This document shows, piece after piece, positions 60,114 through 64,000 of a DNA stretch of 64,000 nt (positions within the stretch are counted from its first letter, which is position 1; each line of letters starts with the position of its first letter). The position numbers and the translations under genes were made by a program. The notes under the pieces are model-generated. The model was not told the origin of the DNA. It saw only the letters and a list, made by a program, of their open reading frames with translations, and did not search any database. Origin of the DNA: Gloeocapsopsis crepidinum LEGE 06123 (GTDB lineage: Bacteria; Cyanobacteriota; Cyanobacteriia; Cyanobacteriales; Chroococcidiopsidaceae); assembly GCF_015207655.1 (NCBI RefSeq), contig NZ_JADEWN010000001.1, forward strand, positions 62,001 through 126,000, written 5' to 3'.

Positions 60114-62171
60114 ATGGGTGTTGAGTTAAGCACAAATTCAGCATTAGAGGGTCAGCCCCCTCTTGAACTCCAACCGCAGAAGCAAGAAGCTTCTGAAGGT
60201 AGAAAGGCGGCAAGCGATGGAAAAGCGGAACCAAACAACAAAAAATCCTCATCAAATCCGAAAACTGAACTTTTGCCGCGAAAAAAATGGAAAATTGAGG
60301 ATAGCGAAGCCCTTTATCGAATTGATGGTTGGGGTGAACCTTACTTTTCTATCAATGCTGCTGGTCATGTTACAGTTTCCCCCAAAGGCGATCGCGGTGG
60401 TTCTTTAGATTTATACGAATTAGTGAACGCCCTGAAGCAGCGTAACTTATCCATGCCGTTGCTCATTCGCTTCTCTGATATATTGGAGGATCGGATTCAG
60501 CGATTGAATGCCTGTTTTGCCAAAGCGATCGCTCGCTATAACTACCCAGGTGTTTATCGTGGTGTTTACCCAGTCAAGTGTAACCAACAAAAACACTTAA
60601 TTGAAGATCTCGTTCGATTTGGAAAACCTCATCAATTTGGCTTGGAAGCAGGATCTAAGCCTGAATTAATGATTGCCTTAGCAATGTTAGATACTCCTGG
60701 TGCGCTTTTGGTGTGTAATGGCTACAAAGATCGCGAGTATATTGAGATTGCCATGCTCGCAACACGCTTAGGGCAGACTCCCATCATTGTGATAGAACAA
60801 GTTGAAGAAGTTGATCTCGTGATTAATGCGAGTCGTCAGTTGGGAATTCGACCAATTTTAGGGGTGCGGGCAAAGTTGAGTACCCAAGGTATGGGACGCT
60901 GGGGAACATCAACCGGCGATCGCGCTAAATTTGGTCTGACGATTCCTGAAATCATTCAAGCTGTTGATAAGTTACGCGATGCTAATCTCCTTGAATCATT
61001 GCAACTTCTTCATTTCCACATTGGCTCGCAAATTTCAGCAATTAACGTCATCAAAGATGCAATTCAAGAAGCTAGCCGCATTTATGTCGAATTAGCCCAG
61101 CTTGGGGCAGATATGAAGTATCTCGATGTGGGTGGCGGCTTAGGCGTAGATTACGACGGCTCGCAAACCAACTTCTACGCCTCAAAAAACTACAATATGC
61201 AGAATTATGCCAACGACATTGTGGCAGAGCTAAAAGACGCCTGTGCTGAGCGGAAAATACCTGTACCGACATTGATCAGTGAAAGCGGTAGGGCGATCGC
61301 ATCGCACCAATCAATTTTAATTTTTGATGTTCTCAGTACTTGTGATGTACCTTCAGTTGTCCCAAATCCACCACTCTCAGAAGAACCGCCGATTATTCAC
61401 AACCTCTGGGAAACTTATCAATCAATTAACGTTGAAAACTATCAAGAAGCGTACCACGACATCACTCAATTTAAGGAAGAAGGCATCAACCGATTTAATT
61501 TAGGCATCTTAACGCTAAGAGAGCGTGCCAGGGTTGAGCGAATTTACTGGGCTTGCTGTGAGAAAATCACAAACATTACTCGTCAGCAAGAGTACGTGCC
61601 AGATGACTTGGAAGAACTGGAAAAAATCATGGCTTCCATCTACTACGTCAATCTGTCTGTATTTCAATCTGCGCCAGATTGTTGGGCAATAGATCAACTA
61701 TTTCCCCTCATGCCAATTCACCGCTTGGATGAGGAACCTACACGGCGAGGTATCTTGGCAGACTTAACTTGTGACAGTGATGGAAAAATTGACAAATTCA
61801 TTGATTTACGTGATGTCAAGTCAGTTTTAGAACTTCATTCTTTTAAACCTGGAGAACCCTACTACTTGGGAATGTTCCTCAGCGGCGCTTACCAAGAAAT
61901 TATGGGGAATTTGCATAACTTGTTTGGTGACACCAATGCAGTTCATATTCAATTAACACCTAAAGGATATCAAATTGAACACGTAGTTAAGGGTGATACC
62001 ATGACCGAAGTCGTGGGTTATGTGCAATACGACTCAGAAGATTTAGTCGAAAGTATCCGCCAGCGCACTGAGCAAGCACTCGAAGAAAAGCGAATTACGC
62101 TGTCTGAATCTCAACGATTGCTACAAACATATGAGCAGAGTTTGAGTCGATATACTTACTTGTCTCCATAA
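60114..62171 (+). CDS. speA: Biosynthetic arginine decarboxylase
   Basis: A 685-aa PLP enzyme of the alanine-racemase fold that makes agmatine from arginine, the entry to polyamines. An N-terminal low-complexity tail (about 60 residues rich in Lys, Asn and Ser) precedes the core. PLP Lys is in YPVKCNQQKHLIEDLVRFGK, substrate and cofactor contacts are in HFHIGSQISA and YLDVGGGLGVDYDG, and ISESGRAIASH follows. The C-terminal half has NLFQ-like stretches such as SVFQSAPDCWAIDQLFPLMP and GEPYYLGMFLSGAYQE. Length and order fit SpeA rather than the degradative AdiA. The gene is divergent from ndk and ends near a repeat block. Confidence 0.95.
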   Translation: MGVELSTNSALEGQPPLELQPQKQEASEGRKAASDGKAEPNNKKSSSNPKTELLPRKKWKIEDSEALYRIDGWGEPYFSINAAGHVTVSPKGDRGGSLDLYELVNALKQRNLSMPLLIRFSDILEDRIQRLNACFAKAIARYNYPGVYRGVYPVKCNQQKHLIEDLVRFGKPHQFGLEAGSKPELMIALAMLDTPGALLVCNGYKDREYIEIAMLATRLGQTPIIVIEQVEEVDLVINASRQLGIRPILGVRAKLSTQGMGRWGTSTGDRAKFGLTIPEIIQAVDKLRDANLLESLQLLHFHIGSQISAINVIKDAIQEASRIYVELAQLGADMKYLDVGGGLGVDYDGSQTNFYASKNYNMQNYANDIVAELKDACAERKIPVPTLISESGRAIASHQSILIFDVLSTCDVPSVVPNPPLSEEPPIIHNLWETYQSINVENYQEAYHDITQFKEEGINRFNLGILTLRERARVERIYWACCEKITNITRQQEYVPDDLEELEKIMASIYYVNLSVFQSAPDCWAIDQLFPLMPIHRLDEEPTRRGILADLTCDSDGKIDKFIDLRDVKSVLELHSFKPGEPYYLGMFLSGAYQEIMGNLHNLFGDTNAVHIQLTPKGYQIEHVVKGDTMTEVVGYVQYDSEDLVESIRQRTEQALEEKRITLSESQRLLQTYEQSLSRYTYLSP

Positions 62172-62201
62172 ATAGGAGTAGAGGTGCAGGGGAGATATGA
62201 G

Positions 62202-62229
62202 TGTTGAGTGTTGAGTTATGAGTTATGAG
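62202..62229. repeat. Heptamer tandem repeat (TGTTGAG x2, TTATGAG x2)
   Basis: Two TGTTGAG units are followed directly by two TTATGAG units, running into the 74-bp inverted-repeat arm that starts at 62227. The same words surround the arm at the other side of the guanylyltransferase gene in reverse complement. Confidence 0.75.
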
Positions 62230-62300
62230 TTTAAGAATGATATCCAACCAATCGTACGAAGGTTTGATATTCTTCAATTTAAAATAGTGCCATCCGGCAC
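62227..62300 (+). repeat. 74-bp inverted repeat, left arm
   Basis: This arm is the reverse complement of 63720-63793 with only three mismatches in 74 bases. Internally it has GTGCC-ATCC-GGCAC at its inner end (a 5-bp stem) and an aagaatgatatc...gatattctt pairing. The gene between the arms is the mannose-1-phosphate guanylyltransferase. It looks like a small mobile or hairpin-forming element present twice in opposite orientation. Confidence 0.85.
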
Positions 62301-62355
62301 CTTTCTTCGCTTTCCAAAACTCAAAACTAATCACTCTTTGACTCGCCCCTCGCTC

Positions 62356-63519
62356 CTAATTTCCATTCCCCAGTAACTCAACGATCGCGCGATGTTCTAA
62401 TGGTGGTTGTGACGGTTGGGGATAGCGAGAATCAGTGATTAGCCAGTCAAGAGCTGCCGCTTGCACATCGATGGTTGCACCATTTTTATCAACGCAGTAG
62501 CGTCCAAACACTAACTTGTCAACTAAGCGGACTCCAGGTCCCAAACGCGAGTAATCAAAAATTACACTGTTGTCTACTGTCGCGCCACTGCAAATCCAGC
62601 AATTAGGACCAATCATTGCTGGTCCAATAATTTTTGCACCATCCTCAATGCGTGTCATACCACCAATGTAAACTGGACCTGTGATATCTACTTTGTCCCA
62701 GTTCACAGCAACATTCAAACCAGTGTAGATTCCTGGAGCAACCTGATGACCAGGAATTTCCACATTTTTGATTTCTCTGGAGAGGACACCACGAATAGCG
62801 TGCCAGTAATCAGGAACTTTACCAATATCTACCCATTGGAAATCCATAACTAAACCATAAAATGGCGCACCAATTTCTACTAATTTAGGAAATAATTGGC
62901 TACCGATATCATATTGCTGACCAGAAGGAATGTAATCCAAAACTTCAGGCTCAAAGATATAAATACCTGTGCTGATATTAGTACTCAGTGCTTCTTCAAC
63001 TGCAGGCTTTTCTTGGAAAGCTTTAACACGTCCTGCATCATCAGTAACAACAATACCGTAACTGGAAACTTCCTCGCGAGGAACTGAGCGCATAATCACA
63101 GTTGCGATCGCGCCTCTATCTTTGTGCCACTTGACGGCCGCAGTGAGATCTAAATCAATCAAAGCGTCACCACACAGCACCACAAACGTATCGTCAAAAA
63201 ATGGAGAAAAATCTTGTATGCGCCGCATTCCACCTGCAGAACCGATCGCTTCACCAACTAACTCGCCATCTTCAATCCGCCCCTCAAAAGAATAGGCAAT
63301 TTGAACCCCAAAATGTTGTCCGTCGCGAAAATAGCTTTCAATTTCACCAGCTAAATGACTGACGTTAACCATAATTTCGTCAAACCCATGTTGACGTAGC
63401 AATTCTAAGAGAAATTCCATCACTGGCTTTTGCAGGATTGGAATCATTGGCTTAGGAATTGTGTAGGTAATTGGGCGTACGCGAGTACCTTTACCAGCCG
63501 CTAGAATCATGGCTTTCAT
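62356..63519 (-). CDS. Mannose-1-phosphate guanylyltransferase / NDP-sugar pyrophosphorylase
   Basis: A 387-aa enzyme. The N-terminal nucleotidyltransferase begins MKAMILAAGKGTRVRPITYT with the GxGTRxRP loop and KPMIPILQKPVMEFLLELL. It has FVVLCGDALIDLDL (metal Asp) and FQEKPAVEEALSTNISTGIY. From about residue 255 a left-handed beta-helix follows (MTRIEDGAKIIGPAMIGPNC, DNSVIFDYSRLGPGVRL). The predicted product is GDP-mannose, a precursor for exopolysaccharide and glycolipids, though related enzymes use glucose-1-phosphate. It lacks the phosphomannomutase-like C-terminal half seen in longer cyanobacterial homologues. It is flanked by two copies of a 74-bp inverted repeat and lies next to scpA. 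Confidence 0.85.
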   Translation of the reverse strand: MKAMILAAGKGTRVRPITYTIPKPMIPILQKPVMEFLLELLRQHGFDEIMVNVSHLAGEIESYFRDGQHFGVQIAYSFEGRIEDGELVGEAIGSAGGMRRIQDFSPFFDDTFVVLCGDALIDLDLTAAVKWHKDRGAIATVIMRSVPREEVSSYGIVVTDDAGRVKAFQEKPAVEEALSTNISTGIYIFEPEVLDYIPSGQQYDIGSQLFPKLVEIGAPFYGLVMDFQWVDIGKVPDYWHAIRGVLSREIKNVEIPGHQVAPGIYTGLNVAVNWDKVDITGPVYIGGMTRIEDGAKIIGPAMIGPNCWICSGATVDNSVIFDYSRLGPGVRLVDKLVFGRYCVDKNGATIDVQAAALDWLITDSRYPQPSQPPLEHRAIVELLGNGN

Positions 63520-63879
63520 AAATAGTTGCTCCTCAACCTCATGTTTTTATATACCTAAATTAATTGATACCTAATAATCGCCTAAATTCCAGCATTTAGT
63601 CATCATTGAAACCACTGACAGCTTTAAGTAGGGAGTAGGGGTGAGAAGTGAGGGGTAAGTGGTGAGTAGCTAGTGGAAGAGTGACTAGCGCGTGAGTTTT
63701 GAATTTTGTTCGCGTTCGCGTGCCAGATGGCACTATTTTAAATTGAAGAATATCAAATCTTCGTACGATTGGTTAGATATCATTCTTAAACTCAACACTC
63801 ATCACTCATATCTTCCCTGCTTCCTTAGTTTCCCGAGTTCTCGAAAAACCCTGACCTCTGATTTTTGATCCATAACCTC
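63520..63879. other. Intergenic region with repeat arm
   Basis: 360 bases between the guanylyltransferase start and the scpA stop. It holds the right 74-bp arm, short tag-rich words (gtgagtagctagtgg, gtgactagcg) like those at 59336, and probably the guanylyltransferase promoter near 63520. No gene is visible. Confidence 0.5.
63720..63793 (-). repeat. 74-bp inverted repeat, right arm
   Basis: Partner of 62227-62300, in opposite orientation, 71 of 74 positions identical after reverse complement. It opens with GTGCC-AGAT-GGCAC, where the 5-bp stem is kept although the loop differs from the left arm. Reverse-complement heptamers follow its outer end, as they do at the left arm. Confidence 0.85.
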
Positions 63880-64000
63880 TCATATTGCAGTAATTGTCCG
63901 AATTTTGATCTCTTGATAAAACTCATCTTGGGATAGCTCTACTTTTGACTGGGCAGATAGTAACAATAATGCCCAAAAAACGCTGACTCGTTCTTGAACA
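63880..64000 (-). CDS. scpA: Segregation and condensation protein A, C-terminal end only
   Basis: A minus-strand frame enters from the window edge and ends with TGA at 63880-63882. It reads VQERVSVFWALLLLSAQSKV followed by ELSQDEFYQEIKIRTI. This matches the ScpA C-terminal winged helix (xERVxxFLALLxLxxxGxVxxxQ then a short strand IxIR). ScpA is the kleisin of the SMC condensin complex for chromosome segregation. Only 40 residues are visible, so the call rests on a short stretch. Confidence 0.65.
   Translation of the reverse strand, partial: VQERVSVFWALLLLSAQSKVELSQDEFYQEIKIRTITAI

Follow-up and report, generated by a model that had tools for sequence, protein, structure and literature searches.

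A matched pair of inverted mosaic repeats around a nucleotidyltransferase gene in Gloeocapsopsis crepidinum and its probable origin by local copying

Two nearly identical stretches in inverted orientation enclose a single gene at the right-hand end of the window, the 64,000 nucleotides of Gloeocapsopsis crepidinum LEGE 06123 DNA that we analysed. The arrangement raises the question whether the segment between them is an invertible switch, whether the repeats are copies of a small mobile element, as the initial annotation had also considered, or whether another process has made them alike. The reading that we favour is that they are two copies of a mosaic, dispersed repeat that local copying or gene conversion has probably homogenised.

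The inverted arms and the enclosed gene

The left arm (62227–62300) is, at 71 of 74 positions, the reverse complement of the right arm (63720–63793), with mismatches at 62245, 62262 and 62295. Our recount agrees with the initial annotation on this point and extends the match. An ungapped alignment of 62212–62300 with 63720–63808 matches at 83 of 89 positions (93% identity), the longest exact run between the arms being 32 nt. Beyond a 14-nt gap the similarity resumes outwards (62186–62217 with 63789–63820, 94%). The inverted pair scores 132 bits; the best of 200 Markov-simulated 3-kb sequences reached 45.4 bits. The arm pair is real and its match lies far above chance.

Together with their outer GAGTNNT-type repeats, the left arm comprises positions 62186–62300 (plus strand) and the right arm positions 63720–63820 (minus strand), and the enclosed segment is about 1.4 kb long. 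Each arm contains a core module (62227–62285 on the plus strand, 63735–63793 on the minus strand), diverged forms of which occur elsewhere in this genome (G000) and in its relatives G001 and G002. A small hairpin module adjoins the core on the inner side (GTGCCATCCGGCAC at 62287–62300, plus strand; GTGCCATCTGGCAC at 63720–63733, minus strand), and the tract common to both arms ends at the inner edge of this hairpin. The inner tails are unlike each other. The left one (CTTTCTTCGCTTTCCAAAACTC..., 62301–62352, plus strand) is a module common to many other intergenic gaps, and the right one (GCGAACGCGAACAAAATTC...) occupies positions 63640–63719 on the minus strand.

The hairpin has the form GTGCC-ATCY-GGCAC in both arms. 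One of the three differences between the arms falls into its loop and the other two into a larger stem. The initial annotation had taken the constant stem and variable loop as a sign of selection for the hairpin. A single loop change in 14 positions is uninformative in this respect, however, and the right copy folds worse (-6.2 kcal/mol, z = -1.4) than the left (-10.1 kcal/mol, z = -3.4).

Exactly one gene lies between the arms, as first described: the only open reading frame of at least 100 amino acids there is located at 62356–63519 on the minus strand. Its product of 387 residues belongs to the Pfam family NTP_transferase. The best NCBIfam model is mannose-1-phosphate guanylyltransferase, which was the name originally given to the gene, but the score of 176.7 bits falls below the model cut-off of 440. 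We refer to the gene as a nucleotidyltransferase gene; judged from its sequence, a mannose-1-phosphate guanylyltransferase-like product is putative. The left neighbour is speA, encoding arginine decarboxylase (60114–62171, plus strand). On the right follows the 3' end of scpA (63880–64000, minus strand, stop at 63880), which continues past the window in L100.

The 120 nt upstream of the nucleotidyltransferase gene (63520–63639, minus strand), likewise situated between the arms, form a conserved block. It is identical at 120 of 120 positions in G001, a member of the same genus, and was matched in six of ten relatives tested. A scan of the block found no promoter-like site, and a promoter there would be putative. 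An Rfam scan returned one tRNA and nothing else, plasmid records gave no match, and viral contigs held no relative of the enclosed gene. In G014, a member of the same family, the upstream block is split by a two-ORF transposase (L395:6230–7302), which we take to be IS630-like.

A mosaic repeat family and a combination found twice

The window's own genome (5.67 Mb in 150 contigs) contains many sequences related to the arms. A search with the left site gave at least 88 matches to pieces of it, both arms counted and 40 of 253 candidates scored. Many of them cover a single module, be it the array of GAGTGTTGAGTTATGAGTT on the outer side or the tail with CTTTCTTCGCTTTCCAAAACTC on the inner side. 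For the outer unit, 337 matches with up to three mismatches were counted, compared with 133 for a control with the pattern reversed, which is itself a TTGAG-like repeat. In contiguous sequence we counted 39 repeat clusters in 854 kb of G000 (about 45 per Mb), 27 in 760 kb of G001 and 16 in 400 kb of G002. All but one of these 82 clusters are intergenic (2.0 Mb from three genomes, with our own ORF caller). The arms are assembled from modules of this abundant intergenic repeat family. We picture the repeat as a mosaic of outer GAGTNNT-like arrays, small hairpin modules and inner AAAACTC-like units, with one copy separating speA from the nucleotidyltransferase gene and a second separating that gene from scpA.

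The clusters are distributed over convergent (26), tandem (44) and divergent gaps (11). Gaps of at least 100 bp in the sampled stretches numbered 157, 512 and 283, respectively. Clusters are rarer in divergent gaps (11 per 283) than in convergent ones (26 per 157), ratios that are approximate because some clusters fall into gaps shorter than 100 bp. In tandem gaps the orientation relative to transcription is without clear bias (15 same, 25 opposite, 4 mixed).

Further dispersed sequences were noticed in passing. A 137-bp repeat occurs with 94% identity in two convergent gaps 20 kb apart (C41:193483 and C41:213508 of G000), and the G001 orthologues of both gaps have a different sequence in the middle. 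A hairpin-like module with GGAGGACACCTCCGCACGCAAC is found at about 200–330 of L317 (G000, contig C112) and at about 560–660 of L092 (G014). It occurs in both genera and in either orientation and looks like another dispersed module.

The combination present in the arms is much rarer than its parts. With all 24 candidate matches in G000 scored, two cover the full 74-bp unit, both of them in the window. Three more places (C149, C22 and C28) have the core alone at 79–84% identity, and one place (C58) has the hairpin in a different setting. In an alignment of seven core copies, the core runs into the GTGCC hairpin in the two window arms and in none of the five others. Since the junction of core and hairpin is unique to the arms, they look like copies of each other and not like separate assemblies of modules. 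The missing hairpin continuation in the five other copies also speaks against selection for the hairpin, which we discarded as an explanation. The loci of all 12 relatives compared are devoid of the 74-bp core, and the gaps of G002 at this locus contain none of these repeats.

The suggestion that the arms are two copies of a small non-autonomous element, to be checked by a genome search for the 74-bp unit, is borne out for the modules, which recur at many places. It does not hold for the whole unit, which has no further copy in G000 and none at the 12 relatives' loci; transposition is left as a candidate only. Many near-identical full-length copies, as in a MITE family, were not found in G000, which has two full units and three diverged cores.

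Local copying or local hopping as possible origins

G001 is the sister species of G. crepidinum. In the stretches compared, 128 orthologous genes of the two species average 94.4% identity, and the outer flanks of the locus are nearly identical. Both orthologous gaps of G001 also carry a matched inverted pair, of a different repeat type. Within a genome, left and right elements score 120 bits against each other in G000 and 160 bits in G001. Between the species, the orthologous elements reach 40.5 bits (left with left) and 29.7 bits (right with right); the largest cross match, between the left element of G000 and the right element of G001 (66.7 bits), is the common inner tail. For the left element of G001 the best non-self match is the right element (190 bits, next best 164 bits); its type is common in that genome, with at least 42 non-self matches (40 of 220 candidates scored for both figures). 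Paralogues at this locus are closer to each other than orthologues, as in concerted evolution.

Based on this comparison we propose that both gaps already had repeats and that one of these replaced the sequence of the other through non-reciprocal copying between the neighbouring inverted arms. Plausible routes would be RecA-type gene conversion or template switching during replication. In G. crepidinum the copying probably went from left to right, because the outer edge of the right copy (AGATATGAGTG) resembles the left site. The edge of the left site is shared by G001, and the right edge, judged by eye, is unlike its own orthologue. The enclosed gene would be a bystander that is not inverted in the process. 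Several observations count against homogenisation. An inverted pair is absent from this locus in G002, G004 and G010, the last of which has a direct pair of 48 nt, and four of the seven opposite-strand pairs of neighbouring repeats described below are not best matches of each other.

The main rival is local transposition, which would give the same picture. A small non-autonomous element may have hopped locally, inserting twice nearby in each lineage within older repeats, without any conversion between the arms. The repeats are indeed dispersed and mosaic, the genome has diverged cores at other places, and the sister species differ in the content of several orthologous gaps whose flanks agree. 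Two independent insertions in G001 are conceivable, as the element type is common there. Hopping, however, needs two insertions into the same two gaps and in the same relative orientation in both lineages, and no third full unit occurs in the genome. A search of G000 for transposases of the Y1 type, the only type sought, found none with matching ends. Each of the two Y1_Tnp matches (C13:4440-4802 and C37:75241-75603) lies in a copy of an IS200-like element of 536 bp; the two copies are identical and have GC-rich ends that resemble hairpins. These ends do not match the arms, and the resident element was dismissed as their source. We regard hopping as a serious but rather unlikely alternative to homogenisation.

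We also looked at neighbouring repeats away from this locus. Among the fetched clusters (73 from G000 and 61 from G001) there are 21 pairs of neighbours 0.3–3.5 kb apart. Three of the seven opposite-strand pairs are reciprocal best matches, namely the index pair in the window, its G001 counterpart and a pair at C50:47722/49034 of G000. None of the 11 same-strand pairs is a best match, and of three pairs with a mixed-orientation cluster one is a one-way best match. A single gene is enclosed by the C50 pair, whose inverted copies are 96% identical over 69 nt. The pair is matched in G000 without a counterpart in G001, where one of the gaps has other sequence and the other keeps the outer edge alone; the region has no match in G002. 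If the index locus and its G001 counterpart are left out, three one-way best matches are counted in 19 near pairs (permutation p = 0.044), the loci having been picked in part by similarity to the element of the window or of G001. Support for homogenisation outside the index locus is weak.

A survey of near pairs independent of the motif, carried out on contiguous stretches at a threshold of 80 bits, yielded one inverted and two direct pairs in G000, one of each in G001 and none and four in G002. The outer unit is present in both gaps of five of the 16 pairs listed. Two of these are the index pairs, which are inverted and best matches in both directions; the remaining three are direct and lack this reciprocity. 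Moderate local similarity is consequently not limited to inverted pairs. The other 11 pairs lack the outer unit; of six inspected by eye one is tRNA-like and the others resemble pieces of genes. A restriction of homogenisation to inverted neighbours was abandoned, as motif-free near pairs occur in both orientations, and no dependence on orientation is claimed.

For the right element of G014, the best non-self match is an inverted copy at a distance of 5.4 kb, located between terC-like and ndk-like genes; the speA-gap copy comes fourth (40 of 108 candidates scored in both cases). It is tempting to see one process in all these cases. In this genus, short tracts may be copied, by template switching or gene conversion, from one intergenic repeat to another that lies close by in inverted orientation, such that gene-flanking pairs stay matched while their type turns over between species; neighbours on the same strand would be affected less or not at all. 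The index pair and those of G001, C50 and G014 would then be instances of it. We offer this generalisation tentatively and consider it more doubtful than homogenisation at the index locus.

Other explanations and known systems

The arms might instead be hairpin terminators or mRNA-stability elements under selection on both sides of the gene. Four terminator-like matches were found where 1.7 were expected (sd 1.7), three of them on the GTGCC/GGCAC hairpins, and those at the left site are in sense orientation for speA as well as for the enclosed gene. The higher frequency of clusters in convergent gaps (26 per 157) than in divergent ones (11 per 283) also favours this reading. At the right site, however, the terminator-like match is on the plus strand and thereby antisense to both scpA and the enclosed gene, and its hairpin is the one that folds worse. 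Other sequences occupy both gaps in the relatives, and tandem clusters show no clear bias in orientation. A fixed orientation of the repeats after the 3' ends of genes, by which the inversion would simply reflect the strands of the genes, was rejected on the same tandem counts (15 same, 25 opposite, 4 mixed), and also on the C50 pair, which is inverted though the three surrounding ORFs share one strand. A function of the arms in termination or mRNA stability appears improbable.

Recombination between the arms could in principle flip the gene and switch its expression, as originally proposed, and inverted arms with 93% identity over 89 nt and an exact run of 32 nt might permit rare homologous recombination. 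The constant gene order, the location of the upstream block and the eight neighbouring proteins scanned, none of them a recombinase, speak against such a switch. The gene faces speA in all 12 relatives compared. In a set of 80 named loci, 74 have it adjacent and convergent to speA, five are without the gene in the stretch covered, and in one (L249) it lies about 3 kb from speA, still on the opposite strand; the two genes are on opposite strands in all 75 named loci that have both. A set of 29 relative loci, which possibly shares some genomes with the named loci, contains 22 convergent arrangements and seven without a speA match. In the loci where scpA was found (70 named, 20 relative) it always shares the strand of the nucleotidyltransferase gene. 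No relative with both genes located shows the inverted arrangement. The conserved block is situated between the arms, so that an inversion would carry it along with the gene, and a Pfam scan of the eight neighbouring proteins found no recombinase. As the 74-bp core is missing from the loci of all 12 relatives, the switch would not be conserved. We consider inversion very unlikely.

A mobile cassette built like a composite transposon, to which a single gene between inverted repeats might point, is already contradicted by the conserved gene order, the gene being located beside speA in 12 of 12 relatives and in 74 of the 75 named loci having both, with or without repeats, and can practically be set aside.

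Homogenisation of two resident repeats has partial parallels in known systems. Cyanobacterial genomes contain small dispersed repeats (SDRs), which are short, modular, intergenic and without coding capacity; they were reportedly described by Elhai et al. in Genome Research in 2008. By this definition the repeats described here are alike in kind, being short, modular, dispersed and intergenic. They differ in combining their units into composites of roughly 150 nt and in having matched inverted copies that change together. Invertible promoters and segments of phase-variable genes share the inverted pair, here around about 1.4 kb. Phase variation differs from the present case, in which no recombinase was found in the scanned neighbours, no relative is inverted and the upstream block travels with the gene.

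The SDR work of Elhai et al. (2008) is cited in PMC3116915 and PMC4390886. REP elements and REPINs are, according to PMC3116915, short extragenic modules with partly palindromic sequence that are scattered over one genome, and the modules found here have the same properties. In contrast to the REPIN/RAYT system, the sole two Y1 transposase matches belong to one IS200-like element with ends unlike the arms. Concerted evolution, for example of rRNA operons (PMC6002687), likewise leaves copies within a genome closer than orthologues. Unlike rRNA operons, the copies here are non-coding intergenic repeats about 1.4 kb apart that are matched over about 90–150 nt, and the type of the repeat sequence differs between sister species. 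Among the open-access literature matches listed, none describes this repeat family or intergenic repeats that are homogenised in pairs.

The repeat family itself is an ordinary one; the twist is the paired change at two nearby gaps. For this locus the analysis removes a plausible-looking phase switch. It provides, with the contrast between sister species, an example of bacterial non-coding repeats that change in step at two nearby sites. If the process is general, nearby inverted repeat pairs in genomes of this kind would record copying between neighbours, and it would be premature to take them straight away for invertible switches or conserved elements.
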